Below, piece by piece: positions 5,537 to 61,599 of a stretch of 64,000 nucleotides of DNA. The translations under genes were made by a program, and so were the position numbers. This stretch comes from Hahella sp. CCB-MM4 (GTDB lineage Bacteria > Pseudomonadota > Gammaproteobacteria > Pseudomonadales > Oleiphilaceae). The DNA is taken from NCBI RefSeq assembly GCF_002260525.1, contig NZ_MRYI01000002.1:62001-126000 (forward strand), in the 5' to 3' direction. Under the pieces are notes generated by a model. It was not told the DNA's origin. It saw only the letters and a list, made by a program, of their open reading frames with translations, and did no database searches. Positions within the stretch are counted from its first letter, which is position 1, and every line of letters begins with the position of its first letter.

Positions 5537-5604
5537 ATCGGTTATTCCACAACCTTAGCTAAATCGCCGTCTCAGCTAATCAGACATCTCAACTAAACCG
5601 CAGT
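5537..5604. repeat. 17-bp tandem repeat spanning the SDR stop codon
   Basis: Units begin CTTAGCT at 5554, CTCAGCT at 5571 and CTCAACT at 5588, spaced exactly 17 bases, with a weak fourth unit at 5537. The third unit contains the SDR stop codon (5593-5595 on the minus strand), so the array is rooted in the gene end. Confidence 0.75.
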
Positions 5605-6324
5605 ATAGCCACCGTCGATGGGAATCGTTGCGCCGGAGATCATGGCCGCTGCATCACTTAATAAAAACAGTATCGGCATGACCACTTCTCCCGGTTCCGC
5701 AAACCGCCGCATGGGGATCTGGTTTCGCAGAGCATCGGCTTTCTCCGGGTCGCTCCAGCCCACTTTAGCCATAGGCGTCATGGTCACCGTCGGGTTCACA
5801 CTGTTAACGCGAATATTATGCGGCCCCAGTTCAGCACAAAGGTTGCGGGTAATCGCATCCATAGCGGCTTTGGAGGCGGCATAACCAAGATGGTCCTTGA
5901 GGGCGATCAGACCCGCCTGACTGGAAACATTCACAATCGCACCACCGCTCCCCTGACTAATCATACGCCTGGCGACTTCGCGACTGACTAATGCGGCCGC
6001 CCGGGCATTGATGGACATCATCCGATCGAAAGCAGCCGCGGTGAGATCAAGGCATGGTTGCAACAGCGCCAATCCGGCGCAATTGACAGCTCCGTGCAAC
6101 GGACCAGAGTCCAGACTGATCGCTTCGGTCCCTTCCGGAGAGGACAAATCCGCCTCCAGAACATCGCAACCACAGATTTCTCTTAGCAGGGTCAGTTTTT
6201 CAACATTTCTTCCAACGGCAAGAACCTGTGCGTCCGCATCACGTAATGCCCTGACGACAGCCTCACCGATCCCACTGGTGGCCCCGGTGACGAGAATCCT
6301 TTTGTGTTTCAGATCATCCAGCAT
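5593..6324 (-). CDS. Short-chain dehydrogenase, L-xylulose reductase-like (DCXR type)
   Basis: NAD(P)-dependent short-chain dehydrogenase of 243 aa. TGATSGIG (residues 13-20) binds the cofactor, NCAG and the YAASK catalytic pair follow. The stretches VNCAGLALLQPCLD, GAIVNVSSQAG, GPHNIRVNSVNPTVTMTPM and FLLSDAAAMISGATIPIDGGY resemble the dicarbonyl/L-xylulose reductase group more than ordinary SDRs, suggesting interconversion of L-xylulose and xylitol. Last gene of the minus-strand sugar operon, 73 bases after the transaldolase gene, which fits pentose or pentitol catabolism. Start ATG has AGGAAA upstream. The SDR call is certain; the substrate is inference from similarity and context. Confidence 0.85.
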   Translation of the reverse strand: MLDDLKHKRILVTGATSGIGEAVVRALRDADAQVLAVGRNVEKLTLLREICGCDVLEADLSSPEGTEAISLDSGPLHGAVNCAGLALLQPCLDLTAAAFDRMMSINARAAALVSREVARRMISQGSGGAIVNVSSQAGLIALKDHLGYAASKAAMDAITRNLCAELGPHNIRVNSVNPTVTMTPMAKVGWSDPEKADALRNQIPMRRFAEPGEVVMPILFLLSDAAAMISGATIPIDGGYTAV

Positions 6325-6364
6325 GGCAGTTTCCTATTATCAACGATTCTTCCACAACACTGAA

Positions 6365-6408
6365 AAAGGCATATATCAGGCATATAGCAGACAGCTATCA
6401 GACAATCT
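6365..6408. repeat. 11-bp tandem repeat spanning the transaldolase stop codon
   Basis: Four consecutive 11-base units; on the minus strand they read AGATTGTCTGA, TAGCTGTCTGC, TATATGCCTGA and TATATGCCTTT. The first unit is the last codons of the transaldolase gene including its TGA stop (6398-6400). Confidence 0.8.
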
Positions 6409-7381
6409 GAGCGGCGCTCAGCATTGCTGCCTGTATACGATCCGTCAGAATATCTTCCAGCAGTCTTTGATCATGCTCAAATCCACGGATGCCCTCGGCC
6501 AGTTTTTCCGTCGCCATGGCGTCCTCATTGAGCTGCCAGCGAAACTCCTCTTCCTTCAGCGGCTCAGGTCTTTGCTCAACCTTCTGCTCATGCTTCAGCA
6601 CCCTATCCAGATTCCCATGCTGCGACGCTAACTCTTCCAGTAATGCAGGGCTGATTGTGAGTCGATCACAACCGGACAGAGCAAGGATTTCTCCGGTATT
6701 ACGGAAGCTTGCCCCCATGACAACGGTAGGATACTGATGCTGCCGAAAGTACTCATAGATACGCTGCACCGACAATACACCCGGCTCTTCCGCCGGTTCA
6801 AAGCTCCGCTCCGGCTGGGCTTTCCGGTGCCAATCCAGAATTCTTCCGACAAACGGGGATATCAGATAAACACCGGCTTCCGCACAGGCCCTGGCCTGGG
6901 CAAAACTGAAAATAAGCGTGAGATTACACTGAATGCCTTCTGACTCCAGGATTTCCGCTGCCTGAATACCTTCCCAGGTCGCCGCCAGCTTAATCAGGAT
7001 TCGGTCACGGCTGACACCCGCCATTTCATATAGGCGCACCAGCTTCCGCGCCTTGGCAAGACTGCCTTCCCGGTCGAAGGAAAGTCGCGCATTGACCTCC
7101 GTGGATACACGCCCCGGCACTTCTTCCAGAATTCGGGTGCCCATGGCCACTATCAGGCGATCACACACCTCTTCCACCAGGTGTTCCCGGGGAATGGATG
7201 GGCTTAAGCCGGCAAGAATCTGCTCCAACAGAGCGTCATATTTACCTGACTGAACCGCTTTTAGAATCAACGACGGATTGGTCGTCGCATCCTCCGGTTC
7301 ATAACAACGGATAGCGTCGATATCTCCGGTATCGGCCACAACCGTGCTGAATTGTTTGAGCTGCTCGAGTAATGAGTTCAT
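6398..7381 (-). CDS. tal: Transaldolase
   Basis: Transfers a dihydroxyacetone unit between sugar phosphates in the non-oxidative pentose phosphate pathway. The protein (327 aa from the chosen ATG) is of TalB size. Visible family blocks are [13 protein letters not shown] near the N-terminus, [12 protein letters not shown], and the Schiff-base lysine in [16 protein letters not shown]; later [23 protein letters not shown]. The frame opens at a TTG at 7387, but the ATG at 7381 has AGAGG six bases before it. Within the sugar operon it would process pentose phosphates made by the FGGY kinase. The 3' end has been expanded into an 11-bp tandem repeat. Confidence 0.95.
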
Positions 7382-7418
7382 CCTCAACCTCTTTTATTAG
7401 ATATTTCCCCTAGGCAGA

Positions 7419-8954
7419 TTAACGATCTGACAATGCGTGCATGTGGGGTTTCAGGGATTGATAGATACCGCAGTATTGGGCAAATAGGCGGTCATAATGC
7501 TGCTTTCGGGCTTCATCAGGTGTGGCACGCCTGCGCAGCTTGCACCAACGGCGGATTTCACTGACGTCCGCCACCAGACCACACGCCATGGCCGCCAGCA
7601 ATGCACCTCCAAGAGGCGCTTCCACTTCCTGCTCAATGGTCAGTATCGGATAGCCGGTGATGTCCGCAATAATCTGCATCCACAAGTCCGAGTGTGCAGC
7701 GCCTCCCACAACAATGAGTTCCGGGTCCAGGCTGGCCGCCCCCTTGGCTCCGCACTCCATATTGTGGCGAAGTGCAAAAGAGACACCTTCCAATACCGCC
7801 CGATATAAATGGGATTTGGTGTGGGACAGAGTCAGTCCGACATAGGCACCAGAAGCTTTGGCATCCCACACCGGGCTACGCTCTCCCATCAGATAAGGAA
7901 GAAAGATCAGCCCGTCGGCCCCCGCCGGAGTCTTGGCTGCCTGCAGCTCCATCAACTCGTGGACATCCACATTCCCCAGCAACTGGGCAGCCTGCTTGTC
8001 TTCCGCGCAGAACTGATCACGGAACCAACTGATCGACGCCCCCGCCGTAATTGCTCCGCCAAAGATGTAGATATCCTGCTGACCGTTGTGCACATATGGC
8101 ATACTGATCAGCCCATTACGGGCATCGGTACTCTTGTTGATATAGCCCCAGCACATGCTGGTACCAATCATGGCCACGTGATTTCCAGGCTCAATCACCC
8201 CCGCCGCCAGGGTCGCCATGGCCGCATCCACGCCGCCAGCCACCACCGGAGTACCGGGCAAAAGCCCCGTCAGATCGGCAGCTTCTGTGGTCAGGCCACC
8301 CACGATATCCCCCGATTCCACCAATCGCTCCGGCATCAGTGATGCGTCAATCCCCAAGGTTTCCAACATATCCCTGGACCAGCAGCGCTGACGGATATCA
8401 TATACACCGCCGATGTTACCGGCGGAGCTGTGATCCACAGCCAACGCTCCCGTCAGGTGATAATTGACATAGCTGTTGGGTGGAATCAGGTATTTCGTCT
8501 GTCTCCAGATCTCCGGCAGGTGGCGTTTCAACCACAGCATTTTGGTATAACCGTAATAGCTGTCCACGCCGTTTCCGGTGATGTCAAAGAGTGTCTGCAG
8601 GTCTACATGTTCCCGAACCCAATCCACTTCATCATTGGCCCGGCGATCCATCCAGATCAAACAGGGATGCAGAGCCTTGATATCCGCGTTGACCGGGATG
8701 CCCGATCCGCCATAGAGGCTGCTGACACAGACTGCCTTGATTTCCTCAGCGGCCACTCCTGCTTGGCTGACGACCTGACTCAGGGTTTTGTATACCGCAT
8801 CCAACCATACTTCCGGCCATTGCTGGGCCCATAAAGGTTTGGGTTGTTCTACCTGATAGGCCGCCGAAGCCTGGGCAATAATGTCACCGGCAGCGGACAT
8901 CAACAGGGCTTTGGTACTTTGGGTGCCGATATCCACCCCAATCACATATGCCAT
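7419..8954 (-). CDS. FGGY-family carbohydrate kinase, xylulokinase-like
   Basis: ATP-dependent sugar kinase of 511 aa with the two actin-like domains of the FGGY family. The N-terminal phosphate loop VDIGTQSTKALL (residues 7-18), WMDRRANDEVD, the GGVDAAMATLAAG block and the C-terminal adenosine motif VVGGAAHSDLWMQIIADI are present. Best guess is D-xylulokinase, which would give D-xylulose 5-phosphate for the neighbouring transaldolase, but FGGY substrates (xylulose, ribulose, erythrulose) are hard to tell apart by eye. Start ATG follows GAGGAG. It is 12 bases downstream of the dehydrogenase gene in the same operon. Confidence 0.88.
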   Translation of the reverse strand: MAYVIGVDIGTQSTKALLMSAAGDIIAQASAAYQVEQPKPLWAQQWPEVWLDAVYKTLSQVVSQAGVAAEEIKAVCVSSLYGGSGIPVNADIKALHPCLIWMDRRANDEVDWVREHVDLQTLFDITGNGVDSYYGYTKMLWLKRHLPEIWRQTKYLIPPNSYVNYHLTGALAVDHSSAGNIGGVYDIRQRCWSRDMLETLGIDASLMPERLVESGDIVGGLTTEAADLTGLLPGTPVVAGGVDAAMATLAAGVIEPGNHVAMIGTSMCWGYINKSTDARNGLISMPYVHNGQQDIYIFGGAITAGASISWFRDQFCAEDKQAAQLLGNVDVHELMELQAAKTPAGADGLIFLPYLMGERSPVWDAKASGAYVGLTLSHTKSHLYRAVLEGVSFALRHNMECGAKGAASLDPELIVVGGAAHSDLWMQIIADITGYPILTIEQEVEAPLGGALLAAMACGLVADVSEIRRWCKLRRRATPDEARKQHYDRLFAQYCGIYQSLKPHMHALSDR

Positions 8955-8965
8955 GGCGATACTCC

Positions 8966-10045
8966 TCAGGGCTTGAGCAGGACCTTGATTGAATCTGTTG
9001 AAGATGCCAGTTTGAATGCATCCTCCCAGTCGTTCAGGTTGAAATCGTGGGTCACGATGCCTTTGGAAGTCACCAGCCCACGCTCAAACAGGTCAATAGC
9101 GACCGGATAGGTATAGGGCCCCAAATGAGCACCGCGGATATCCAGTTCCTTACGGTCACCAATCACTGACCAGTCTGTGGTGGTTTCAGCCCCAAACACG
9201 CTGAATTCAATAAAGCGCCCCAGCTTACGAATGATCTGCAATCCCTGGGTCACAGCCGCGGGATAGCCAGTCGCCTCAATATACACGTCACAACCATAAC
9301 CATCGGTCATGGCTCTTACTTCCTTATCAATATCATCGCGCTTTGGATTCAATACCACGTCCGCACCGAAGGATTTGGCCAGCTCCAGACGCTCGTCCAC
9401 CATATCGATGACCACCAACTTCTTCGGCGTTTTCAGTTTGGCGACCTGAATCATGCACAAACCCAAGGGTCCAAGGCCTGCCAGAACAACCACGTCATCC
9501 AACTGGATGTCAGCCCGGTTAACGGTATGAATGGCACAAGCCATGGGCTCGATCAGTGCAGAGTCTTCCAGGGACACAGCCTCAGGAATCTTATGCAGAC
9601 GGGCATTCGCCGGTATCCGCATATATTCCGCCATGCCACCCTCAGCCACATCTTTCTGGAAACCGAAGATATTGTGGACCTCGCACATCCAGTATTTACC
9701 GGAATCACAGAAACGGCATTTCCCGCAAGGGACGATTTGTTCCGCAATCACCTTGTCCCCAACGGCGACACCAAAATGTTCTGCCGCCCCTTCACCCAGT
9801 TCAGCCACCCGGCCATAAAATTCATGGCCCGGAATCACCGGCGCTTTCAGCCAGGGATCATCGCCGCACCAGAACATATCTGCACCGGAGCTCGCCTTAC
9901 AGTCGCTGCCACAGATGCCGCAGGCTTCGATCTTGATAATCACTTCATTGACTTTGGCCACTGGACGTTCGCACTGCTCCAGCCGGTAGTCGTTTGGCGC
10001 GTGACATACCACCGCCGTCATGGTTTCAGGTAATTTGCTCATCAT
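8966..10045 (-). CDS. Zinc-dependent medium-chain polyol dehydrogenase
   Basis: MDR-family dehydrogenase, 359 aa. Catalytic zinc ligands are Cys42 in EACGICGSD and the His/Glu pair in PGHEF; a structural zinc is held by the four cysteines of CGKCRFCDSGKYWMC. The Rossmann motif is GLGPLG. Residues such as GYGCDVYIEATGYPAAV and KELDIRGAHLGPYTYP resemble proteins annotated as erythritol/L-threitol or xylitol dehydrogenases. With an ABC sugar importer, an FGGY kinase and an L-xylulose-reductase-like SDR it probably oxidises a polyol to the keto sugar used by the kinase. Start has GGAGAC before the ATG. Exact substrate is open. Confidence 0.85.
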   Translation of the reverse strand: MMSKLPETMTAVVCHAPNDYRLEQCERPVAKVNEVIIKIEACGICGSDCKASSGADMFWCGDDPWLKAPVIPGHEFYGRVAELGEGAAEHFGVAVGDKVIAEQIVPCGKCRFCDSGKYWMCEVHNIFGFQKDVAEGGMAEYMRIPANARLHKIPEAVSLEDSALIEPMACAIHTVNRADIQLDDVVVLAGLGPLGLCMIQVAKLKTPKKLVVIDMVDERLELAKSFGADVVLNPKRDDIDKEVRAMTDGYGCDVYIEATGYPAAVTQGLQIIRKLGRFIEFSVFGAETTTDWSVIGDRKELDIRGAHLGPYTYPVAIDLFERGLVTSKGIVTHDFNLNDWEDAFKLASSTDSIKVLLKP

Positions 10046-10087
10046 TTCGTCTCCATGATGTTGCTTTATATTGTTTTATCCATTTGT

Positions 10088-10132
10088 CTGCAGAGCTCTC
10101 TGTAGAACCATCTACACTTTCTGCAGAGCAAA
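10088..10132. repeat. Degenerate 12-bp repeat and small stem-loops between permease and dehydrogenase genes
   Basis: TCTGCAGAGC occurs at 10087-10096 and 10120-10129, with related CTGTAGAACCAT and CTACACTTT between, about 12 bases apart. GTAGA/TCTAC (10102-10115) and CTCCCA/TGGGAG (10145-10160) can form stems in the mRNA. The region separates the transport part from the enzyme part of the operon. Confidence 0.5.
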
Positions 10133-10182
10133 AGAACCCCACAACTCCCATGACTGGGAGCTGCTCTATGGATTCTCAGAAG

Positions 10183-13754: not shown

Positions 13755-13762
13755 TCATCCTT

Positions 13763-35905: not shown

Positions 35906-37318
35906 GTGAGCGAAGCTAAATACCTTGAGATTGCCCGTCGAATTGAGTCATTGATTGATATAGGTCATTACGCTGTAGGGAGCAAACTCCCCACCCACCG
36001 GGCTCTCGCTGACGAATTCAACACCACGCCCGTGACGATCGCCAAGGCTTATAAAGTGTTGGCTGAAAATGGCAGAATTGAATCCTTTGTCGGACGGGGA
36101 AGCTTTGTCAGGGACCGGTCTCAGCTCAAGCAGGTAATACAGTCTCACTTCGCTGATAACGAGTGGAATTTTTCCATTTTGCAGCCCTGTTATGCGGACC
36201 ATCTAGAATCTCTTCATACTCAACTGAAAAACAGCTTCGACCAATTATCCAATCCCGGACTCTATGGATACACAGAAGACACAGGTTTTAGTGCTCATCG
36301 TGAGGCAGGCTTCGCGTGGATGCAGAAATTTGGACTCCGGACCGGCTCGGCAGAACAAACGCTTCTGACCAACGGCGCACAGCACGCCCTCTCCACGTTA
36401 ATCGAGCTTTATACAAAACCGGGAGATCGAATCGCGTTAGAAGCACAGACCTATCCGGGAATACTGTCTATTGCCAGTTTTCTGGGGCGTCAGCCGGTGG
36501 CTGTTGCGATGGATGAATATGGGATGCTGCCGGAGTCCCTGAATGAAGTATGTCGGGAATACCAACCTGCAATGGTGATCATTATCCCTTCCCACCAGAA
36601 TCCAACCGGCGCCACCATGTCGGAAGACAGACGCAGAACCCTGGCCAGTGTCATCCAGCGACACCCGTTGTGGCTGGTGGAAGACGACATCTACGGATTT
36701 CTGAATGAGTCCCCCGTCACTCCCGTGACAGACCTCATTCCCGAGAAAAGTTTCTACATCAGCAGTCTGTCAAAGGCGATCAGCCCAGGGTTACGGTGCG
36801 GTTATATCAAAGCTCCGCAGAACCAGGTATCCCGGCTTGCTTCCTTTATTCGGGCCACAGTCTGGCTGGCTTCGCCTCTGATGTTTGAAGTCGCCAGCCA
36901 TTTGATCATGTCCGGTACGGCAATCGAAATGGCAAATAAGCAAAGGGATATCGCCCGTCACAGGCAGGAGATTGCAAGACATGCCTTGTCTCCTTACACC
37001 TTAAGTGCGCAGAAAACGAGCTTCCACATCTGGCTTTCCCTTCCGGGTAACTGGCAGGCAGACCAGTTTACCCTCACGGCGAAAGAAAGAGGCTTACTGG
37101 TGAGCAGTGGCTCTTATTTCAGTGTTGATCTCAATCAGTTCAGCGTCGACCTCAATCAATTCAATACCGAGCCCGGTCAGTTGAATGTTGAACCCAGGCA
37201 AAACAACGCCATTCGGCTTTCATTGATGGCCATAGCAGACGAGGGATCTTTCCGGGAGGGCCTCAGAGAACTGGCCACGCTACTGAAAACCGGAAAGAGC
37301 GGCTACCTGCAATTCTAA
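35906..37318 (+). CDS. MocR/PdxR-family regulator (GntR winged helix fused to aminotransferase fold)
   Basis: 470 aa starting at GTG. Residues 1-75 are a GntR-type winged helix (LPTHRALADEFNTTPVTIAKAY, then GRGSFV). The rest is a fold-type I aminotransferase domain with PLP lysine in SSLSKAISPGLRCGY. Such proteins regulate vitamin B6, GABA or amino-acid genes. Near residue 405 a 28-residue insert made of four heptads (FSVDLNQ, FSVDLNQ, FNTEPGQ, LNVEPRQ) comes from a 21-bp tandem repeat and has no counterpart in the family that I know. Possible target: the divergent dehydrogenase. Confidence 0.88.
   Translation: MSEAKYLEIARRIESLIDIGHYAVGSKLPTHRALADEFNTTPVTIAKAYKVLAENGRIESFVGRGSFVRDRSQLKQVIQSHFADNEWNFSILQPCYADHLESLHTQLKNSFDQLSNPGLYGYTEDTGFSAHREAGFAWMQKFGLRTGSAEQTLLTNGAQHALSTLIELYTKPGDRIALEAQTYPGILSIASFLGRQPVAVAMDEYGMLPESLNEVCREYQPAMVIIIPSHQNPTGATMSEDRRRTLASVIQRHPLWLVEDDIYGFLNESPVTPVTDLIPEKSFYISSLSKAISPGLRCGYIKAPQNQVSRLASFIRATVWLASPLMFEVASHLIMSGTAIEMANKQRDIARHRQEIARHALSPYTLSAQKTSFHIWLSLPGNWQADQFTLTAKERGLLVSSGSYFSVDLNQFSVDLNQFNTEPGQLNVEPRQNNAIRLSLMAIADEGSFREGLRELATLLKTGKSGYLQF
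37118..37201 (+). repeat. 21-bp in-frame tandem repeat, four units, inside the MocR gene
   Basis: Units at 37118, 37139, 37160 and 37181, each 21 bases, encode FSVDLNQ, FSVDLNQ, FNTEPGQ and LNVEPRQ. The first two are near-identical and differ only at silent sites. Confidence 0.85.
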
Positions 37319-37359: not shown

Positions 37360-37451
37360 TTATCTATTTTCTTACCTATCTATGGTTCCTTATTATCAAT
37401 CTCTCTTACCTATCTATTTTTCTTATCTATCTGCTTTCCCGCCTACTTGCC
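37360..37451. repeat. About 17-bp pyrimidine-rich tandem repeat upstream of a lipoprotein gene
   Basis: TTACCTATCTAT occurs at 37372-37383 and 37406-37417, with related TTATTATCAATC at 37390 and TTATCTATCTGC at 37423, so units of 16-18 bases. The 220-base gap between the MocR and lipoprotein genes otherwise holds only the expected promoter. Confidence 0.65.
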
Positions 37452-40477: not shown

Positions 40478-40506
40478 ATCTCCCCCCAAAGCCCACAGTG
40501 CCCGCC

Positions 40507-40586
40507 ATTAACAGCTAGTACTCTCTATTAACAACGAGCACCCTCAATTAACAACTAATGCCCTCAGATAACCAAAGTGGCCACGC
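40507..40586. repeat. 20-bp tandem repeat in a divergent promoter region
   Basis: ATTAACARC units start at 40507, 40527 and 40547, with a decayed fourth (GATAACC) at 40567, exactly 20 bases apart. Located between the divergent starts of the binding-protein gene (40477) and the channel gene (40752). Confidence 0.8.
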
Positions 40587-41684: not shown

Positions 41685-41796
41685 TGATTGGCTGCCTGCC
41701 CCGTTAAATGATAACAAATTCCCCCCGACTGGATACACTTGCCCGCACACGATATAGTCGCCACTGTTTGTCATTAATTTGAGTATTGGGGACCTC

Positions 41797-42684
41797 ATGA
41801 AATTAGCAGGAAAGCTATTGCTTCCAGTCGTATTCAGCCTCCTGTTCACAGGCTGCGCCACCACTAAAACAGGGAAAGGGATCGAACTGGTTAAAGACAA
41901 CAAGGCTTTAGAAGCACTTCCTATTCTGGAGGAAGCCGCTGCGGATGGAAGCAAAACCGCGGCAATCATGGCCAGCTTCCTATATCTTACGGACGGGCAG
42001 ATTCCCATCGATATTGAAAAGGCCAAACACTATTACAACGTTGCCAGCTCATTGGATTATGGTGACGGCCAGTACCTGGACTATTTCGTCCCTCAAGTCC
42101 AAGCCCGTATCATGCTATTCGACGATCTAACTGAAAACGACGCTGACGCAACAACGATCCTGAGAGGAGAACGCTACTCGGAATACCCTCCCTCACTCCG
42201 TCTACTGGCAATGAGCTACAGTGTCGGCAAGGGCGTTGAAAAAAATCTGAAACTATCAAAGCTGCTGTTAGAGCGGGCAATGAATATTGATGACACGCCA
42301 GACTCAAATCATATGTATGTCTGGTGGTTGGCGGTCCACCCGGATGAGGAGTTCCGAGACAGCCGGCTTGCCATGGAACTTTTACCCAGCATCCTCGAAG
42401 ACGTGGATGAATCAAATCAGGCCAATGTTTGGGACACCCAGGCGGCAGTTTTGGCGGCTAACGGTCAATACAAAGAAGCCTTAACAATACAACTCAAAGC
42501 ACTTGGCAAACTGAAAGAAGATGTAAGGCATAACCCGATGCTCAAAAGACTGGTTCCCTCCTTTGAATGTCGTCTACTGACCTACCAGAGCCAATCGCCA
42601 TGGCATTTTGAACCGGGAACCTCACCATTCAGCAAACTCTACTTCCATCGATGTGGCATCCAAAGTGATGCGACATCGATATAA
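41797..42684 (+). CDS. SEL1-like repeat lipoprotein
   Basis: 295 aa with lipobox FTGCATT and helical repeats resembling SEL1/TPR (ALPILEEAAADGSKTAAIMAS, LSKLLLERAMNIDD). ATG 41797 has GGGGA before it. Presumably an envelope protein-protein interaction scaffold. It is downstream of the channel gene by 112 bases. No further family known. The end of the gene runs into a 26-bp tandem duplication. Confidence 0.7.
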   Translation: MKLAGKLLLPVVFSLLFTGCATTKTGKGIELVKDNKALEALPILEEAAADGSKTAAIMASFLYLTDGQIPIDIEKAKHYYNVASSLDYGDGQYLDYFVPQVQARIMLFDDLTENDADATTILRGERYSEYPPSLRLLAMSYSVGKGVEKNLKLSKLLLERAMNIDDTPDSNHMYVWWLAVHPDEEFRDSRLAMELLPSILEDVDESNQANVWDTQAAVLAANGQYKEALTIQLKALGKLKEDVRHNPMLKRLVPSFECRLLTYQSQSPWHFEPGTSPFSKLYFHRCGIQSDATSI

Positions 42685-42686
42685 CC

Positions 42687-42738
42687 GCATTTCAACTTAC
42701 TGGGAAATAACAGCATTTCAATTTGCTGAACCAATATG
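42687..42738. repeat. 26-bp tandem duplication after the SEL1-like gene
   Basis: GCATTTCAACTTACTG... at 42687 and GCATTTCAATTTGCTG... at 42713. A degenerate earlier unit (GCATCCAA... ATATAACC) seems to start within the last codons and to include the TAA stop at 42682-42684. Confidence 0.6.
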
Positions 42739-44865: not shown

Positions 44866-45771
44866 ATGAACTTTATAGATATTAAAAAAATCGACTATAA
44901 CCTGGCCGTTGTCTTCCTGGCGATTTGGAGTGAACGCAGTGTCAGCAAAGCCGCTGACAAGCTTGCACTGAGTCAGTCAGCAACCAGTGCGGCGTTGACC
45001 AGACTCAGAGAGTTATGTCAGGACCCACTGTTTATCCGCATGCAGGGAACCATGGAGCCCACATCCCGGGCCATTGCCATTCAGCCTGCCGTAGAACAAA
45101 GCATTGTTCAGTTACACCAGAGTCTGACCCAGACCATTGAATTCAACCCAGCTCTATCCGACCGACAGTTCTTCATCGGAATGTCAGACGACTTTGAACT
45201 GGCCATCGCCCCACGGTTATCCAAGAAACTGGCCGAGCAAGCCCCTGGCGTTTCTTTGATATACCGACAGACAAACAGGCACCGGGTTGAGCAGATGCTG
45301 GAATCCGGACAAATAGAGTTGGCGGTGATCGCCGGAGAGTTGTCCCGCCCCTGGTTAGAGGAAACCCCACTGGGCGAATCCGGGTACGCTTGCGTGTATA
45401 ACTCCCGCAAATGGGGAATCAAATACCCGATTGACCTGGACGAATTTCTCCGGATTCCCCATATCCGAATCAGCTTTTCCGGCACCTCCGGGGAAGTGGA
45501 CCTGCATATGAAAAAACTGAATCGTACCCGCCATGTCCATACCTCCCTCACCCATTTTTCCTCACTCCCCTACTTCTTAAACGAAATCAGCAGCCTGTCC
45601 ACCATTCCGGAACACGCCGCCAGAGTTCTCTGCCAGCATTCCGAGCTGCAACAATGCCCTACACCTTTCGACATGGGACGTTACAACGTCAAGATTCTGC
45701 GTCGACGGACTCAACAGGCCGACCCCGGGCTAAGCTGGCTGATCAATGCGCTGATTCTCTGCGGACTATAG
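44866..45771 (+). CDS. LysR-family transcriptional regulator
   Basis: 301 aa. Helix-turn-helix SVSKAADKLALSQSATSAAL in the first 60 residues; the periplasmic-binding-protein-like effector domain follows (QFFIGMSDDFELAIAPRL). Divergent from the EamA transporter, the usual LysR target arrangement. Weak ribosome site. The gene end is expanded into a tandem array of 22-bp units that starts in the last codons. Effector unknown. Confidence 0.9.
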   Translation: MNFIDIKKIDYNLAVVFLAIWSERSVSKAADKLALSQSATSAALTRLRELCQDPLFIRMQGTMEPTSRAIAIQPAVEQSIVQLHQSLTQTIEFNPALSDRQFFIGMSDDFELAIAPRLSKKLAEQAPGVSLIYRQTNRHRVEQMLESGQIELAVIAGELSRPWLEETPLGESGYACVYNSRKWGIKYPIDLDEFLRIPHIRISFSGTSGEVDLHMKKLNRTRHVHTSLTHFSSLPYFLNEISSLSTIPEHAARVLCQHSELQQCPTPFDMGRYNVKILRRRTQQADPGLSWLINALILCGL

Positions 45772-45943
45772 AACGGCCTTTCTCCAGGTCATATGGAACC
45801 CCACTCCGGGCCAGATAGATCCTCACACCAGGCCAAATAGATCCTCACTCCGGGTCAAATAGAGCCTTCTCTCAGACCCAAATAGAAACTTGCTCTGAGT
45901 TAAATAGAACCTTGCCCTGGATCAAATAAATTCACATCGTTCA
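45766..45943. repeat. 22-bp tandem repeat, eight units, rooted in the LysR stop codon
   Basis: Unit consensus TCAAATAGANCCTCACTCCGGG. Units start at 45766, 45789, 45811, 45833, 45855, 45878, 45900 and 45922. The first contains the LysR stop codon TAG (45769-45771). The largest array of its kind in the window; it fills nearly all of the space up to the TetR gene. Confidence 0.88.
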
Positions 45944-46015: not shown

Positions 46016-46669
46016 ATGAGAATGGTCGAATCCAGCGCCAGTGAACCTACCCGCAGAGCGCTATTGCAGTCAGCCAGCAAGATCTTCGCAGAACAAGGCT
46101 TTCAGATTGCCCGAATCCGCGATATTGCTGAAAATGCGGGGACCAACCTGTCTGCGATCAACTACCATTTCGGCAGCAAAAAGGGACTGTATTACGCCGT
46201 ACTGGAATCGGTCGCACAGACCACGATTGAACGGTTCCCCCTGCTCTCTTCGGATAGCAGTCACCTGTCGCCGGAACAACGGTTTCGATTTCTGGTCAGA
46301 AATCTGCTGCGCAGGTTTATTTCCCCGGATACCCCTTCCGTGCTGGCGCAACTCATGACCAGGGAATTGAGTCACCCGACTCAGGCACTGGATGATCTGG
46401 TCAATCGGGTCAGCCGACCACAATTCATGACCGCCGCATCCGTCATACGGGAAATAGTCAGCCCTGATATCAGCCAGGAGCAGGTTCAACAAGCGGTCTT
46501 AAGCGTATTCGGACAATGCATTGTGTACCTGTTTGCCCGCCCCTTGATTTCCCGGTTACTGCCACAGGACGTGTACAGTTCAGAGCAATCCATAGACCAG
46601 ATTGCCGACCATATCGCTACATTTTCGCTTGCAGGGCTACAGGCCATGCAGCCACTGGAGGGCTCCTGA
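46016..46669 (+). CDS. TetR-family regulator, CecR-like
   Basis: 217 aa from the preferred ATG. DNA-binding domain FAEQGFQIARIRDIAENAG, then TNLSAINYHFGSKKGLYYAV. The C-terminal half (LIREL-like SHPTQALDDLVNRVSRPQFM, VLSVFGQCIVYLFARPLI) resembles the CecR (YbiH) ligand domain. As in E. coli cecR-ybhGFSR it precedes genes for a membrane-fusion protein, an ABC ATPase and a permease, so it should repress that exporter and respond to a drug or lipid. No clear ribosome site; perhaps leaderless. Confidence 0.87.
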   Translation: MRMVESSASEPTRRALLQSASKIFAEQGFQIARIRDIAENAGTNLSAINYHFGSKKGLYYAVLESVAQTTIERFPLLSSDSSHLSPEQRFRFLVRNLLRRFISPDTPSVLAQLMTRELSHPTQALDDLVNRVSRPQFMTAASVIREIVSPDISQEQVQQAVLSVFGQCIVYLFARPLISRLLPQDVYSSEQSIDQIADHIATFSLAGLQAMQPLEGS

Positions 46670-46670
46670 A

Positions 46671-47660
46671 ATGAAATACCGATATCCGCTTTTGTTGGTA
46701 ACATCCATTTTCCTTTACGCCTGCTCAGCACCGGAAAACGATGGCTGGCAGGGCTACATTGAAGGAGATTCCATCTTCGTCGCCGCCCCCGTAGAAGGAC
46801 GACTGGAATCCATCTCGGTACAGGAAGGTGATCAGGTCGATGCTGCCAGCAGCCTCTTTGTCCTGGATGAAGAGCCCCAACGGGCCATTCTTCACAAGGC
46901 CATGGCGCAACTGGAAAGTGCCAAAGCTGAATTGGCAGACCTGGAAAAGGGCAAGCGCCCCCAGGAAATTGAAGTGATTGAGGCCCAATACGAACAGGCC
47001 AAAGCCGCAGCCGCCTTATCCGCCAAGCAGCTCAAGCGGGCAAGAGAGTTGTATGCCAACAATCTCACCAGTCGCTCAACTCTGGACGAAGCGCAAACAA
47101 CCGATGAGAGCAACCGACAGAGGGTTCAGGAAATCGCTGCGCAACTGGAAACGGCGAAACTGGCCGCCCGCCCTGACCAGCTGGAAGCCGCCAAAGCCAG
47201 AGTGGGAGCTGCACAGGCAGAATTGAACCAGGCAACTTGGCAAATGAGTGAGAAGCAACAGACTGCGCCATCCTCAGGTTTGGTCCAACAGGTGCTATAC
47301 CGACCCGGTGAATTTGTCGCTGCCGGTCAACCGGTTGTGGCCCTGCTGCCGCCCAGCCGGATCAAAATCCGCTTTTATGTTCCGGAAACCGCGCTGACCA
47401 ATATTCGTGCCGGCTCTCAGGTAAAGATCCAATGTGATAACTGTGACGAACCATTCATCGCCACTGTTCGCTATATCAGTCCGACAGCAGAATATACCCC
47501 GCCGTTTATCTACAGCCGCGAAAATCGTGACAAGTTCGTTTACCTGGTAGAGGCCTGGCCAACCGTGGAGACTGCAGCCAAGCTACACCCGGGCCAACCC
47601 GTGGATGTGTTCGGTAGCAATACCCTGGCAGAACAGATTTCGGAAAACGGCGAGCAATAA
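46671..47660 (+). CDS. HlyD-family membrane fusion lipoprotein (YbhG-like)
   Basis: 329 aa, ATG one base after the regulator stop. Signal with lipobox LYACSAP, so anchored in the inner membrane by lipid. The biotinyl-lipoyl half-motif DSIFVAAPVEGRLESISVQE, a long coiled coil (about residues 80-190, SAKAELADLEKGKRPQEIEV) and the return half (PSSGLVQQVLYRPGEFV) make the adaptor that links the ABC exporter to an outer-membrane channel. The substrate is unknown; the E. coli counterpart concerns antibiotic export. Confidence 0.9.
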   Translation: MKYRYPLLLVTSIFLYACSAPENDGWQGYIEGDSIFVAAPVEGRLESISVQEGDQVDAASSLFVLDEEPQRAILHKAMAQLESAKAELADLEKGKRPQEIEVIEAQYEQAKAAAALSAKQLKRARELYANNLTSRSTLDEAQTTDESNRQRVQEIAAQLETAKLAARPDQLEAAKARVGAAQAELNQATWQMSEKQQTAPSSGLVQQVLYRPGEFVAAGQPVVALLPPSRIKIRFYVPETALTNIRAGSQVKIQCDNCDEPFIATVRYISPTAEYTPPFIYSRENRDKFVYLVEAWPTVETAAKLHPGQPVDVFGSNTLAEQISENGEQ

Positions 47661-47661
47661 C

Positions 47662-48591
47662 ATGAATCAGCGTGAAGCCATTATCGAAGTCAAAGGCCTA
47701 TCCAAATCCTTCGGCGACAAAGTGGCCGTGGATAAGGTCAACCTGACCGTTTACAAGGGAGATATTTTTGGTTTCCTGGGACCAAATGGCAGTGGCAAAA
47801 CGACCACGATCCGCCTGTTATGCGGCTTGTTAACCGCCGACGACGGGGAAGGCAAATGCCTGGGGTACGATATTCGTAAAGAATCCCGAACCATTAAACG
47901 CCAGGTAGGGTACATGACCCAGCGGTTCAGCTTCTACGAGGACCTGACGATTCGCGAGAACCTTGATTTCGTGGCGCGGGTATACAACATGAAGAATCGC
48001 CGCCAGGTGGTTGATGAGGCATTGGTGCAACTCGGCCTGGAACACCGTCAGAACCAGCTGGCAGGCGATTTATCCGGCGGCTGGAAACAGCGTTTGGCTC
48101 TGGCAGCCTGCATGCTGCATCAACCCAAGCTGCTACTGCTGGATGAGCCGACGGCCGGTGTGGACCCTCAGGCACGGCGGGATTTCTGGGATGAAATACA
48201 CCGGCTTTCAGGTCTCGGTATTACCGTCCTCGTCTCGACCCATTACATGGATGAAGCGGAACGCTGTAATCGTCTGGCCTACATTGCCTACGGCAGTCTG
48301 GTGGGAGAAGGCTCGCCCAAATCCCTGGTGGATGATTCCGGGCTGACCACCTGGATGATCGATAGTGAAGATGTTCACCAGTTGGCCGATGAGCTGCGGG
48401 ATGTCTCAGCTGCCCAACAAGTGGTGCCTTTCGGCAATACCCTATACGTATCGGGAACAGATTCCAAAGCATTGGAACAGGCTCTGGCCTCCTATGATCA
48501 ACGTGATGATATCCATATGGAGCGGACTACTCCCAGGCTGGAGGATGTTTTTATCCGGCTGATGCACAGCTCGGAGGAGAAACGATGGTAA
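47662..48591 (+). CDS. ABC exporter ATP-binding protein (YbhF/CcmA type)
   Basis: 309 aa. Walker A GPNGSGKTT, signature LSGGWKQRLALA, Walker B LLLLDEPTAGVDPQARRDF. A single ATPase domain, whereas E. coli YbhF has two fused. Starts 2 bases after the adaptor stop and overlaps the permease start by 7 bases. Drives the adaptor/permease exporter of the CecR-like operon. Confidence 0.93.
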   Translation: MNQREAIIEVKGLSKSFGDKVAVDKVNLTVYKGDIFGFLGPNGSGKTTTIRLLCGLLTADDGEGKCLGYDIRKESRTIKRQVGYMTQRFSFYEDLTIRENLDFVARVYNMKNRRQVVDEALVQLGLEHRQNQLAGDLSGGWKQRLALAACMLHQPKLLLLDEPTAGVDPQARRDFWDEIHRLSGLGITVLVSTHYMDEAERCNRLAYIAYGSLVGEGSPKSLVDDSGLTTWMIDSEDVHQLADELRDVSAAQQVVPFGNTLYVSGTDSKALEQALASYDQRDDIHMERTTPRLEDVFIRLMHSSEEKRW

Positions 48592-49721
48592 TCTCATTTT
48601 CACCCAGGCGCCTGTGGGCCATCGTCCTGAAGGAATTTGTCCAGTTAAGACGGGACCGGCTTACCTTTGCCATGATGATCGGCATCCCACTGATCCAGCT
48701 CACCCTGTTCGGGTTTGCCATTAACTCCGATCCCAAGAAACTCCCAATGGCTGTCCGCAGTGCGGAGTCCACCACATACACTCGGAGCATCGTTCAGGCA
48801 CTGATTCACACCGGCTATTTCAACATTGTTTCCCTGACCAGTTCGGAGCGTGAAGCCAACAACCTGCTGGCGGAAGGGGCAGTGCAATTTGTCCTTAACA
48901 TCCCACCACACTTTACCCGTCAGCTATTAAGGGGCGAGCAACCTTCCTTATTGCTGCAGGCAGACGCCACAGACCCGGCCGCGACATCCAATGCCCTGGC
49001 CGCCGTGAAGGAAGTGCAGAAAACGGCCTTGCGACATGATCTGACAGGAGAACTGGCAAAACTGGCCGGGACTGACACTGCTTTTCAGATCAATATTCAC
49101 CGACGCTATAACCCGGAGGGTATCACCCAATACAACATCGTGCCCGGACTGATGGGCGTCATTCTGACTATGACGATGATTATGATGACCGCGCTGGCCA
49201 TTACCCGTGAGCATGAGCGGGGAACGATGGAGAATCTGCTGGCCATGCCGGTACGGCCACTTGAAGTAATGATCGGGAAAATCGCCCCCTATATCGTGAT
49301 CGGCTATGTTCAGGTGGCGGTGATCTTATCCGCGGCCAAATGGGTATTCATGGTCCCGATGCTTGGGTCTGGGTTACTGCTGCTGGGCGGTGTTCTGGTC
49401 TTTATCATCGCCAACCTGACAGTGGGCATCACTCTGTCGAGCGTTGCCCGCAATCAGGCACAGGCCATGCAGATGTCATTCTTCTTTTTCCTGCCGTCGA
49501 TCCTGCTGTCCGGATTTATGTTCCCATTCCGTGGCATGCCGGAATGGGCCCAGATCCTGGGCAGCATCCTTCCACTGACACATTTCCTGCGCTTCATCCG
49601 CGGGCTATTGCTCAAAGGCAACGATTTTACTTTGGCCTGGGAGCATCTGTGGCCGTTGCTGATATTTACGTTGGTAGTGATGTCGGTGGGATTAAGGCGA
49701 TATAGACAGACCCTGGATTAA
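48585..49721 (+). CDS. ABC-2 type exporter permease (YbhS/YbhR-like)
   Basis: 378 aa: one N-terminal helix, a large periplasmic domain (residues about 50-170) and five C-terminal helices with the ABC-2 block MPEWAQILGSILPLTHFLRFIRG. Start with GGAGGAG upstream. The E. coli operon has two permeases (YbhS, YbhR); only one is present here, so it may act as a homodimer. The last codons are the first unit of a 26-bp tandem repeat. Confidence 0.92.
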   Translation: MVISFSPRRLWAIVLKEFVQLRRDRLTFAMMIGIPLIQLTLFGFAINSDPKKLPMAVRSAESTTYTRSIVQALIHTGYFNIVSLTSSEREANNLLAEGAVQFVLNIPPHFTRQLLRGEQPSLLLQADATDPAATSNALAAVKEVQKTALRHDLTGELAKLAGTDTAFQINIHRRYNPEGITQYNIVPGLMGVILTMTMIMMTALAITREHERGTMENLLAMPVRPLEVMIGKIAPYIVIGYVQVAVILSAAKWVFMVPMLGSGLLLLGGVLVFIIANLTVGITLSSVARNQAQAMQMSFFFFLPSILLSGFMFPFRGMPEWAQILGSILPLTHFLRFIRGLLLKGNDFTLAWEHLWPLLIFTLVVMSVGLRRYRQTLD

Positions 49722-49791
49722 GTGCGATATCGTCAGAGGCCGGACTAACAGCGCTATCATCAGACGCTGACTGAACAGCACTTCGGTCCGA
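49691..49791. repeat. 26-bp tandem repeat starting in the permease gene end
   Basis: Units start at 49691 (inside the last nine codons), 49717 (contains the TAA stop), 49744 and 49770. The first two read ATTAAGGCGATATAGACAGA and ATTAAGTGCGATATCGTCAG, nearly the same. The array runs up to the stop codon of the convergent repressor gene. Confidence 0.85.
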
Positions 49792-52289: not shown

Positions 52290-52400
52290 CAGATTGCCTC
52301 CCATGGAACAAAATACCGGGGCTCATCTTCCTGAGTGGCCTTATTGTTTTAATCATAGTCCGAAATTGGACTCTGGGGCGATCTCAGTTGCGGGAGGAAA

Positions 52401-52465
52401 TTGAAAGCTATTGTTAAAAGCTAATATTGAAAGGAGAGATTGAAAGCTGAGATTGAAGACACTTT
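52401..52465. repeat. 13-bp tandem repeat, five units
   Basis: TTGAAAGCT-type units start at 52401, 52414, 52427, 52440 and 52453, exactly 13 bases apart. Between the binding-protein gene start and the MerR gene end. Confidence 0.85.
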
Positions 52466-54476: not shown

Positions 54477-54572
54477 GTTCATCCATGATGGGTTCTTCAT
54501 TTACGGAGTTCTTCATTTATGGAGCTCATCGTTCATAGAGCCCGTCATTCATGGAGGCTCATCATGAATAAG
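54477..54572. repeat. 16-bp tandem repeat, six units
   Basis: Units start at 54477, 54493, 54509, 54525, 54541 and 54557, each exactly 16 bases; consensus YTCNTCATTYATGGAG. The 344-base gap between the divergent starts of the CYTH-like and VOC genes otherwise shows nothing. Confidence 0.85.
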
Positions 54573-54626
54573 AGAAACCGAGTTAACCACCAACAACCTC
54601 AGGCCTCGTGCTAAGGAGATAGATCC

Positions 54627-55270: not shown

Positions 55271-55371
55271 GCATAGATAACTGAGGACATAGTTATCTTG
55301 CGGACATAGATACCCAGTGAACATAGATATCCTGAGGACATAGATACTCTCAGAACAGAGACACCAACAAG
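55271..55371. repeat. 17-bp tandem repeat, six units, before the PNPOx-like gene
   Basis: ACATAGATA units start at 55271 (one base short), 55287, 55304, 55321, 55338 and 55355, 17 bases apart. The array ends at the ribosome-binding site AAGGAG (55370-55375) of the downstream gene. The rest of the 319-base gap shows only the hairpin listed separately. Confidence 0.85.
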
Positions 55372-55380
55372 GAGTTACCC

Positions 55381-55962
55381 ATGCAAGATCCGATTAAATT
55401 AATGAAACACTGGTTGATGCAGGAAAAGGAAACGCCGAATCAATTTCCTCTCGGCGCCGTACTCAGCACAACCTCCTCGACTGGAAGCCCTCGCTCAAGG
55501 GTGATCGGCACCATGCTGGATTCAGAGGGTATCCCGAAATTCCATACGTCTCCCGGTAGCCGCAAGATTTCCGATATAGAGCACAATCATCAGGTGTCGT
55601 TGACTTATCCTCTTCAATGTCGTCTGAGATCGATCAGTCTCGAAGGAAAGCTGTCTCTGTTATCGGAAAACGAACTCCGGGAGGACTGGCTGAAATATAG
55701 CGATGATTTTCGTAAACATTATCTGGTCTTCGGCGCGATCTCCGGATCGCCTATTGATTCACTGCATGACTTGAGACAGCAACGGGATGCCCTCCCCAAA
55801 AAAGCTGAGCAGTTCATGCCTTCAAGCTTTATCGGATATAAATTCAGTTCGATAACGCGAATCGCATTTTATGAGGTACTGCCGGGCGATTTTGCTGAAG
55901 CCAAAGTCTTTCATTTTGACGAGTCCAGGGGAGAATGGCAGCTCTCACTTGTCGCTCCGTAG
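55381..55962 (+). CDS. Pyridoxamine 5'-phosphate oxidase-related flavoprotein
   Basis: 193 aa. FMN-binding split-barrel with LGAVLSTTSSTGSPRSRVIG, FHTSPGSRKISDIEHNHQVS and the C-terminal RIAFYEVLPGDFAEAKVF, resembling PNPOx-like general stress flavoproteins rather than true PdxH (no PLP-site R-x-H at the end). Probably reduces or oxidises a small molecule, maybe a flavin or quinone. Start follows AAGGAG directly after the tandem array. Confidence 0.8.
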   Translation: MQDPIKLMKHWLMQEKETPNQFPLGAVLSTTSSTGSPRSRVIGTMLDSEGIPKFHTSPGSRKISDIEHNHQVSLTYPLQCRLRSISLEGKLSLLSENELREDWLKYSDDFRKHYLVFGAISGSPIDSLHDLRQQRDALPKKAEQFMPSSFIGYKFSSITRIAFYEVLPGDFAEAKVFHFDESRGEWQLSLVAP

Positions 55963-56091
55963 GAAACACCGGCCCCTTGGGCGCTACATCAAAATCCATT
56001 GCCATGTTGACACAAATCAACACTCTGACGGCTAAGCCCACTAGGATAATGAATCCACGGAGGGTAAACGCCAATCACCAGAGAACAACAA

Positions 56092-59242: not shown

Positions 59243-59284
59243 CGTTCCCGCAGCTGATCAGCTGCTTGTAACCAGCAGTATCTG

Positions 59285-59314
59285 AAAAACCGGCCGACGC
59301 CGGTTTTTCTTTTT
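59285..59314 (+). terminator. Rho-independent terminator of the decarboxylase gene
   Basis: AAAAACCGGC-CGAC-GCCGGTTTTT followed by CTTTTT, a textbook hairpin with T tract, 43 bases after the stop. Confidence 0.92.
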
Positions 59315-59437
59315 GGGGAATTGGTAATTTTTAACAAAAATCCCGTTAAATTGTCAGCTTCACTATCCGTCATTCTTCCTTAGGCTGATCGCTACTGGAT
59401 CAGGTTGATCCGGTACCAATCTCAAAAGGAGGACACC

Positions 59438-60295
59438 ATGATGGTGAGATTCATAATAACTCTGATCACTGTGTGCCTGGCCTGGCCGGCCTTGGCGCAT
59501 CAAACATCCAATCGTCTCGATGTCGGAGGAATGGCGGCACAGTCGGATCTGGTATTCAAAGGCAGAGTGGTCGGTATTGATTACCGGGAATCTGAAGGCA
59601 AAGGAGAGCAGAAACCTCTGCCTTTCACATTCGTTACCTATGCCATTGAAGAGGTGCTGTTCGGACAATATTCCGAATCAACGCTCACCCTGCGTTTCCT
59701 GGGAGGAATGACCAAAAGCGGTGAAATCATGATGAACACATCCGCTCCATCCTTTGATATGGGGGATGAAGACATCCTGTTTGTTCAGGATAACGGTCGT
59801 TCTGAGTGCCCACTGGTCGAATGTTCCAATGGACGCCTGAGAGTCATCCATGGTGCCATCTATAACGAGTATGGCCAGGCAGTTCTTCAGGACCGTAAAG
59901 GAGGTATGGTACTCGGAAGATCCGAAAACCTGGACGAAGTGAACACCTATCAGATTGGTGAGCGCAAGTTTCAACGCAATATCAATCGAAAACTGGTTCA
60001 GGAAGGCGACGGTGAAGCCTCGACATCCAAAGCCATGGCGGGTATTCAACTTCAGGCAGGAAACATCAGTGGCCTGGTGCGCGAACATATCTTCAAAGCC
60101 AATGCCCGCGATCCCTATGGTATGAGCAAGCAAGTACGAAACCTGGACATGACTGCTCCGATTACCGCACCGCAAGCCAGACCGGTCGCGTTACCGGAAC
60201 CCAAATCACAGGCACAAGCCCCGACCAACGAAGATCCGGCTGAACTTGAAGCCATTCAACACAATGGCGGCAATCCTGTACTGAAGGATCAATAG
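59438..60295 (+). CDS. Secreted protein of unknown function paired with a matrixin-like protease
   Basis: 285 aa. Signal peptide ends PALA; ATG 59438 has AGGAGG. The central part (YAIEEVLFGQYSESTLTLRFLGG, MGDEDILFVQDNGRSECPL) looks like a beta-rich domain; the C-terminus is proline- and glutamine-rich. The next gene, 36 bases on, encodes a matrixin-like metalloprotease, so the two are likely one operon. Function not known; could be an inhibitor, chaperone or processing partner. Confidence 0.75.
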   Translation: MMVRFIITLITVCLAWPALAHQTSNRLDVGGMAAQSDLVFKGRVVGIDYRESEGKGEQKPLPFTFVTYAIEEVLFGQYSESTLTLRFLGGMTKSGEIMMNTSAPSFDMGDEDILFVQDNGRSECPLVECSNGRLRVIHGAIYNEYGQAVLQDRKGGMVLGRSENLDEVNTYQIGERKFQRNINRKLVQEGDGEASTSKAMAGIQLQAGNISGLVREHIFKANARDPYGMSKQVRNLDMTAPITAPQARPVALPEPKSQAQAPTNEDPAELEAIQHNGGNPVLKDQ

Positions 60296-60331
60296 GCCAG
60301 ACGCCCCGATAAAGAATAGAGGAGATTCGTT

Positions 60332-61453
60332 ATGAAGAGGTTATTTCGTGTCATGGCCGCTCTCAGCATATTAGTGGCGGCTTCCACCCATGTTAGTGCT
60401 TACACCACCACAAGCTGCGGTTCCGGCGATGTATCCTGGAGTTCCAAAGCTCGATTTATCTATGCCTATACCGGCAGCTTTCCCTCAGGCAGCGGATACC
60501 GTACAGCCCTGGAAGAAGCTATTGCCCGACTCAACGATAATGCAGCGGGTTTTACCTTCTATATTATCTATACATCCACAGCACCCTCCCTGGGGAACGG
60601 CCGTAGCGAGGTATGGATTGAGAATATCAGCCCACCTGCGGTGACCAACTATTGGTGGAACGGATCCTGTAACCTGACTGAAGCCGATATCCGCATGGAC
60701 AGTTCCGTGACCTGGACCACCTCGACTCTCAAGACCACCAACTTTAACTATGGCGGGTCTGGTCGTCCTTTCCAAACCACGTTATTACATGAGTTGGGTC
60801 ACGCAATCGGGCTTGGCCATGAAGCGGATGAATACAACATCATGGGACAGGACTGGAACCATATCCACACCAACGGCAGCACTTCCAGAGCCTACTTTGG
60901 GGAAGATGCCAGTGATGGTTCCGTCTACCTGTACGGAGCGGGTTCCGATGAAGATCTTGGTATCGTTCACTGGAAATGGACAGGTGCCAGCGGAGCCTAC
61001 AGTGCCCATGGTAAAACCCGGTTACTGAACCCTTCAACCGGAGCTGAGCTAAGTTATTCAATCGTCGGTGGCGAGCGGCGCTACAACGTCGTCAGGGGAC
61101 AGTCTGTACGCATGGAACTGACCTACGAAAACAACGGCAATAGCTATCAATATGAGGATGTCAGTTACGTCGCCTCCTCCAATGACTTCATATCCACTTT
61201 TGACACCCTGCTGGCCACACGCAATCTGGGACTGTCTCCGGATAATGTCTACACATCGACCTATGATGTCACCATCCCATCCAGCCTCAATTGCAACACT
61301 CCCTACTGGCTGGGCGCGATCATTGATGCCAATGGCTCGTTAACGGAAAACAATGAGTGGAACAATGCGACCTATATTCCCATCTATGTGAATTGGTCAT
61401 TCAGCTGTCTGATTCTGACACCTAAAATTGAAGTAACTCCCATTCAACCCTAA
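60332..61453 (+). CDS. Secreted matrixin-like zinc metalloprotease with C-terminal CARDB-like domain
   Basis: 373 aa. Signal peptide ends HVSA. The zinc site HELGHAIGLGHE (HExxHxxGxxH) near residue 157 and a Met-turn in YNIMGQDW define metzincins (M10/M57 type). The first 100 residues have YTTTSCGSGDVSW without a clear cysteine-switch propeptide. From about residue 255 a beta-sandwich like CARDB follows (VRMELTYENNGN, TENNEWNNATYIP). Probably extracellular proteolysis. Start with AGGAG. Confidence 0.85.
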   Translation: MKRLFRVMAALSILVAASTHVSAYTTTSCGSGDVSWSSKARFIYAYTGSFPSGSGYRTALEEAIARLNDNAAGFTFYIIYTSTAPSLGNGRSEVWIENISPPAVTNYWWNGSCNLTEADIRMDSSVTWTTSTLKTTNFNYGGSGRPFQTTLLHELGHAIGLGHEADEYNIMGQDWNHIHTNGSTSRAYFGEDASDGSVYLYGAGSDEDLGIVHWKWTGASGAYSAHGKTRLLNPSTGAELSYSIVGGERRYNVVRGQSVRMELTYENNGNSYQYEDVSYVASSNDFISTFDTLLATRNLGLSPDNVYTSTYDVTIPSSLNCNTPYWLGAIIDANGSLTENNEWNNATYIPIYVNWSFSCLILTPKIEVTPIQP

Positions 61454-61510
61454 TCACGAAATCGCTGCCGCCTATGAAAAGCATCCTCATCAGGCGGCAG
61501 CTTTCTTGTA

Positions 61511-61599
61511 GATTCCCAACTTGTCACCGACCTAAGATTCCCTATCTTCCATTTATCACCGACCGAACGTTCCCTATGTGCCATTTATCACTGATGGTT
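61511..61599. repeat. About 32-bp tandem repeat spanning the stop of an orphan binding-protein gene
   Basis: Units start at 61511 (7 bases shorter), 61536 and 61568; each has TTCCC then CATTTATCACYGA. On the minus strand the third unit contains the TGA stop (61588-61590) of the binding-protein gene, so the array is rooted in the gene end. Confidence 0.8.

Follow-up and report, generated by a model that had tools for sequence, protein, structure and literature searches.

What process leaves a dozen short tandem arrays, with units that look unrelated from one array to the next, among the genes of one stretch of bacterial DNA? The question is raised by a window of 64,000 nucleotides (the whole stretch analysed, G000:C74:62001-126000) from contig C74 of Hahella sp. 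CCB-MM4. This draft genome (G000; 6,663,740 bases in 161 contigs) was assembled with SPAdes from 250-bp MiSeq read pairs (PMC5646410). A first-pass annotation, made by reading the letters, pointed out twelve such arrays, many of them at gene ends, and suggested that local tandem duplication acts across the whole genome. Our analysis makes it reasonably probable that the arrays were left by a past burst of such duplication, specific to one lineage of Hahella, and are neutral relics of it.

The arrays themselves were examined with Tandem Repeats Finder (TRF) and with shuffled controls. Ten of the twelve were found at default settings with scores of 42-112 (calls starting at 3879, 6367, 37361, 40507, 45782, 49689, 52400, 54492, 55272 and 61524), and those at 5537 and 42687 were detected only under looser scoring (scores 60 and 82). 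Gapless matching at the period read by eye exceeded that of local dinucleotide shuffles, all periods 8-40 considered, at 11 of the 12 arrays, with P 0.003 for the array at 5537 and none of 300 shuffles reaching the observed value at the other ten. The array at 49691 had been given a period of 26 bp; its actual period is 27 with small indels, and its best match at any period scores 25, where the null reaches at most 12. Since all twelve were recovered by TRF and beat the shuffled controls, the arrays are real.

The survey was then a matter of density. TRF was run on 1.19 Mb of the CCB-MM4 genome, all or part of five contigs and 18% of the total, and arrays were counted when mostly intergenic, with a score of at least 50 and a period of 8-100. 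The sample holds 101 arrays in 172 kb of intergenic DNA (58.7 per 100 kb), with 45-98 per 100 kb on individual contigs. On contig C74 (793 kb) 65 intergenic arrays at this score were obtained, whereas 5 shuffled copies of it averaged 0.0. The arrays are thus a genome-wide feature, and the idea of local tandem duplication on that scale is supported. The window has 9 arrays, while the median 64-kb window of the sampled genome has 5 and the richest 12; it is thus rich in arrays, not unique. Unit length is 14-23 bp in 83 of the 101 arrays, copy number has a median of 2.7 with 95% at 4.8 or fewer, and the longest array spans 124 bp, the sequencing reads being 250-bp pairs. A perfect 8-bp array of 13 copies (G000:C74:308360-308464), which begins in a gene's last codons, looks young and is a possible strain marker. 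Contigs C74 and C107 start with identical sequence; the assembly probably broke there at a repeated element.

Array density was compared with that in five congeners (G001 and G003 to G006, with G002 outside the sample). Of the genomes searched, G006 is the closest by the protein encoded at 44866-45771 (79% identical) and was treated as the sister genome; tentatively it may be H. ganghwensis. It has 13 arrays in 111 kb of intergenic DNA (11.7 per 100 kb). Similar values were seen in G005 (14 in 89 kb, 15.7), G003 (6 in 36 kb, 16.5) and G004 (2 in 18 kb, 11.0), and G001 gave 0 in 17 kb (0.0). The five congeners pooled have 35 arrays in 271,784 intergenic bases, or 12.9 per 100 kb. Mixed bacterial controls (65 loci longer than 15 kb, out of 80) have 42 arrays in 175,491 intergenic bases (23.9 per 100 kb), with at least one array in 25 of the 65; these loci are not independent, because many come from one genus, Alteromonas, and from one neighbourhood. 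The excess in CCB-MM4 is about 4.6-fold over its congeners and 2.5-fold over the mixed bacteria, high and not unheard of. Minisatellites are reported to be underrepresented in prokaryotic genomes (PMC3324548). No paper describing such arrays was recognised among those listed by the searches, judged by their titles and the openings of their abstracts; PMC2884548, on small variable segments of bacterial genomes, may be relevant.

The nature of the copies was studied on the 85 of 101 arrays that are gapless, which also served for the tests of spread and age. Transitions account for 265 of 433 mismatches between adjacent copies (0.61), and chance similarity would give 0.32; the copies are therefore true duplicates. 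Neighbouring copies differ at a median of 14% of positions (15% pooled), and when changes were assigned by majority the four transitions occurred at about equal rates, near 0.05 each. As in minisatellites, units of about 10-60 bp are repeated head to tail more than chance would allow, and the copies are related by duplication and point mutation. The arrays do not have the form of a clustered regularly interspaced short palindromic repeat (CRISPR) array: the units run head to tail, spacers are absent and the copies are diverged.

The units look unrelated between arrays, in agreement with the first-pass annotation, when the unit lists are compared by reading, without an all-against-all comparison; k-mer sharing is weak, and a 147-bp stretch of the 22-bp array of the window matches only itself within its own genome. 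Words containing TAG or CTA are enriched among the units (AATAG 17 vs 5.5, AGCTAT 9 vs 1.1), although these were picked from many k-mers, and in same-strand gaps they are present on both strands. Within the units, 40 arrays of at least 2.9 copies gave 488 invariant columns out of 693 (492.6 ± 11.3 under a uniform model) and 17 three-state columns (17.5 ± 3.9). As the variable columns follow chance, there is no column constraint and no conserved core in these 40 arrays pooled, a test in which one functional array among the 40 would not show. Conserved positions within the unit, the mark of a regulatory array, were accordingly not found in the pooled set.

The age of the arrays was addressed by comparison with the sister genome. 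Among 159 intergenic regions whose flanking genes are both conserved in G006, an array is present in 16 in CCB-MM4, in 7 in G006 and in 1 in both, where 0.7 would be expected; with looser scoring the numbers are 22, 7 and 2 shared (1.0 expected). Sharing is thus not above chance. Four-fold sites between the two genomes are saturated (5620 of 9260 differ, 0.61). Because of this saturation and of the single region with an array in both, the arrays postdate the split, and with a pooled divergence of 15% they are far younger than it. The one shared array (L146:1956-2119, which is G000:C74:581956-582119) lies in a divergent region and has three palindrome-like TTGAA...TTCAA sites at 23-bp spacing, conserved in G006. 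These are probably operator sites of a regulator, in contrast to the other arrays.

The excess in CCB-MM4 is confined to older arrays. Young arrays, with 5% divergence or less, are 8 of 85 in CCB-MM4 (4.6 per 100 kb) and 5 of 10 in G006 (4.5 per 100 kb). Older arrays reach 44.7 per 100 kb in CCB-MM4 and 4.5 in G006, ten times denser. With young arrays as scarce as in the sister genome, the duplication process does not look current. The spread of divergence between arrays was 1.31, and a single age would give 1.30 ± 0.21. Age models were fitted to 84 arrays, the 8-bp array being excluded, with detection by TRF simulated. In bins of 5% divergence, the last one open, the counts are 6, 10, 31, 16, 15, 6 and 0. 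A single age at 22% divergence gave a log-likelihood of -139.8 and a process that stopped at 15% gave -139.9, whereas constant birth reached at best -157.5 (-157.6 to -158.8 with longer time spans).

Position relative to genes was compared with random placement of the arrays within their own intergenic regions. The near edge of 25 of the 101 arrays lies 0-20 nt past a stop (12.8 ± 3.2 expected), and in same-strand gaps 42 of 59 arrays are nearer the 3' side (29.5 ± 3.9 expected). Enrichment of arrays near gene 3' ends, suspected from the window, is thus supported. The first-pass annotation had further supposed that arrays grow outward from the coding end, and this was not upheld: overlap with the stop itself among the mostly intergenic arrays equals random (16 vs 15.7 ± 3.2), and arrays cover 2.7% of the first 10 nt after stops, 5-7% at 10-150 nt, 2.1% between 150 and 200 nt and nothing farther out. 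Seeding at stop codons was rejected on the same two counts. The absence of excess overlap with the stop points instead to tolerance. Before starts the figures are 0.9% for the first 10 nt and 2-3% as far as 300 nt, and 6 arrays overlap a called start (11.7 ± 3.0 at random).

Of the arrays that are mostly coding, 48 of 50 have a period divisible by three. The 48 of 50 that could be placed in genes include 17 in the last fifth of the gene; the stop is at most 30 nt away for 8 (1.5 ± 1.2 expected) and the start for 5 (1.5 expected). The arrays are placed as expected of a process that acts broadly and whose products are filtered by selection. If selection removes harmful arrays, this would account for the placement: genes have a reading frame to keep and, upstream, promoters and ribosome sites, whereas past the stop there is freedom.

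A past burst would account for these features as follows. An episode of raised local duplication in one Hahella lineage, by slippage or by reiterated repair synthesis, would have made short tandem arrays, mostly of 2-5 copies. Each array would have been copied from the sequence at its own spot, and units would be unrelated between arrays because each was taken from whatever sequence lay locally. The episode would since have stopped or slowed and the arrays would be decaying neutrally. Survivors would be found where they do no harm, in intergenic DNA, above all past stop codons, and in frame inside genes, so that the 3' bias would be the work of selection.

Several points weigh against this account. 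No difference in repair genes was found across the seven genomes in five families: Ku is in none of the seven, RecJ and exonuclease I are in all seven, Y-family polymerases have 2-3 matches each, and reverse transcriptases have 1-9 matches per genome, with the fewest (1) in CCB-MM4 and G003. The transition bias is smaller with looser scoring (269 of 475) and in the mixed controls (52 of 110). In the 12 arrays of at least 3.9 copies, 18 informative columns were counted and a pure star would give 7.9 ± 2.8; a pure star phylogeny of the copies is thereby ruled out. Double-length periods are present in several arrays. Because of these and of the shared variants, some arrays grew stepwise over time, and letting arrays of one age grow in this way lowers the fit (log-likelihood -147.1, best of four ages tried). 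Few arrays are seen by TRF once divergence exceeds about 30%, so that a sharp burst has no better fit than a long-lived process that came to a stop. The survey covers 18% of the genome, only 10 gapless arrays came from G006, and genes were called with a home-made caller. These data do not separate a burst from a process that stopped or from copies that were different at birth.

The signs of stepwise growth would also suit steady minisatellite turnover, in which slippage makes arrays at a constant, species-specific high rate and these decay neutrally, and the occurrence of arrays in the relatives and in the mixed controls (the 25 of 65 loci) is in keeping with it. If decay is clock-like, however, such turnover predicts that young arrays are at least as many as old ones whatever the rate of loss, because each survivor passes through the young class; for the same reason, and on the same condition, loss of young arrays cannot explain the age profile. 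The best constant-birth run gave bins of 23, 19, 18, 12, 8, 3 and 1, far from those observed, and adding stepwise growth worsened its fit to -172.5. Young-array density in CCB-MM4 is also no higher than in G006. We therefore regard steady turnover as unlikely.

The scarcity of near-identical arrays could alternatively mean that copies are born already different, with error-prone copying laying down several mutated copies at once, in a process that may still be active. Pooled divergence is indeed equal at lags of 1, 2 and 3 units (0.161, 0.171 and 0.161; at lag 4 it falls to 0.086, from a small number of sites, one perfect array among them), and changes are even across copies (dispersion 1.17). 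Against this, the mutation spectrum with its four near-equal transitions resembles ordinary neutral change, informative columns exceed those of a star, and reverse transcriptases and Y-family polymerases are not in excess in CCB-MM4. This origin is improbable in our view. We are equally doubtful of a variant of it, in which a past genome-wide episode wrote short arrays whose copies were mutated during their making by some error-prone copying process. If that were true, the surviving arrays would be a fossil record of an error-prone episode, whose signature would be that near-identical arrays are scarce.

Repair at illegitimate joins might also have made the arrays, which would then mark joints where genes were gained or lost. 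In stretches collinear with G006 they occur in 10 of 27 gaps adjoining a gene that is missing at the corresponding place in G006 and in 9 of the 95 gaps that are conserved (P 0.0014, matched for length), and over all regions in 12 of 36 (6.2 expected, P 0.0046). Two unrelated arrays flank a four-gene block, 46022-49721, that is absent from that place in G006. The signal is driven, however, by the window in which it was first noticed: outside it the count is 6 of 25 (4.1 expected, P 0.20), and in new regions 2 of 9 (1.8 expected). Strong within the window and not replicated in fresh regions, the idea of gain or loss junctions was set aside as very unlikely. The block 46022-49721 ends in an ABC-2 permease, its conserved neighbours are about 40 bp apart in G006, and G005 has a 70% match to 46866-49720 at a different place.

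Least credible of all is a regulatory role, as repeated binding sites or as C-rich Rho-utilisation sites after genes: the shared array with its three conserved palindrome-like sites and a preference for C over G in same-strand 3'-proximal arrays (25 of 42; mean skew -0.125 ± 0.064) speak for it, but the 40 arrays show no column constraint, of 16 conserved gaps with an array, 15 lack one in G006, and the Rho-site idea fails because the size of the unit GC skew (0.343) is near that of random intergenic DNA (0.310 ± 0.025) and its direction is inconsistent, convergent and divergent arrays skewing in the opposite direction.

The arrays were also set beside known repeat systems. Bacterial minisatellites, or intergenic variable-number tandem repeat loci, consist of head-to-tail units of 10-60 bp, mostly intergenic and unrelated between loci. 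The CCB-MM4 arrays share these features, their units looking unrelated in the lists; unlike minisatellites, they have strongly diverged copies (the median of 14% between neighbours), are many per genome and are seldom young. RecA-independent replication slippage between short repeats makes local tandem copies at any sequence and is normally ongoing. It would yield such arrays, yet young products are scarce in CCB-MM4, and RecJ and exonuclease I are present throughout the genomes searched. Dispersed intergenic repeat families, such as repetitive extragenic palindromic (REP) sequences and miniature inverted-repeat transposable elements (MITEs), lie in intergenic DNA, often after genes. The arrays resemble them in this position and differ in having no shared unit, as far as reading the unit lists tells.

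Within the window, gene names are from Pfam, except LysR (gene 44866-45771), which is the label of the first-pass annotation. That annotation held that one unit contains the native stop codon in at least five cases, and named five genes. At four of these the array does cover the stop. A weak 17-bp array at 5554..5604 covers the stop of the SDR gene 5593-6324 (minus strand; looser TRF score 60, shuffle P 0.003, no default call at 30 or above), and an 11-bp array at 6367..6404 covers that of the transaldolase gene 6398-7387 (minus strand; TRF 42, 0/300 shuffles). The 27-bp array of about 3 copies at 49689..49779 covers the stop of the ABC-2 permease gene 48585-49721 (TRF 81 and 68; looser 103 and 95), and a 32-bp array of 2.1 copies at 61521..61594 covers that of the SBP_bac_3 binding-protein gene 61588-62403 (minus strand; TRF 101; looser 113). 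At the LysR gene the claim failed: the 22-bp array (44-bp higher order, about 7 copies; 45777..45936; TRF 95, 112 and 65; looser 129 and 152) is just past the stop, beginning 6-11 nt after its last base at 45771. A further stop-covering array, outside these five, is the 26-bp array of 2 copies at 42678..42728, over the stop (42682-42684) of gene 41779-42684 (looser TRF 82, 0/300 shuffles, no default call at 30 or above).

The remaining arrays lie between genes. A 16-bp array of about 3 copies at 3866..3915 is directly downstream of the DctM-type transporter gene 2490-3842 (default TRF 3879-3909, score 48; looser 65; 0/300 shuffles), and a 17-bp array with a 34-bp higher order at 37360..37438 is 3' of the GntR/aminotransferase gene 35906-37318 (TRF 72; looser 88 and 103). 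Divergent intergenic regions contain a 20-bp array of about 3 copies at 40497..40572 (TRF 71; looser 92) and a 16-bp array of about 5 copies at 54479..54574 (TRF 59 and 55; looser 92 and 95). A 13-bp array of 4.5 copies at 52400..52457 is between two minus-strand genes (TRF 53; looser 71), and a 17-bp array of about 5 copies with a 34-bp higher order at 55272..55361 is upstream of gene 55381-55962 (TRF 87 and 103; looser 110 and 125).

If the placement of the arrays is indeed the outcome of such filtering, the genome would show where insertions are tolerated, coverage being about 2-3 times higher 10-100 nt after stops than at equal distances before starts. If the arrays are relics of a past burst, the genome of CCB-MM4 would be a dated record of a mutational episode, with many neutrally decaying arrays of similar age. 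Should close strains share these arrays, the episode could be placed on the tree and its genetic cause traced.

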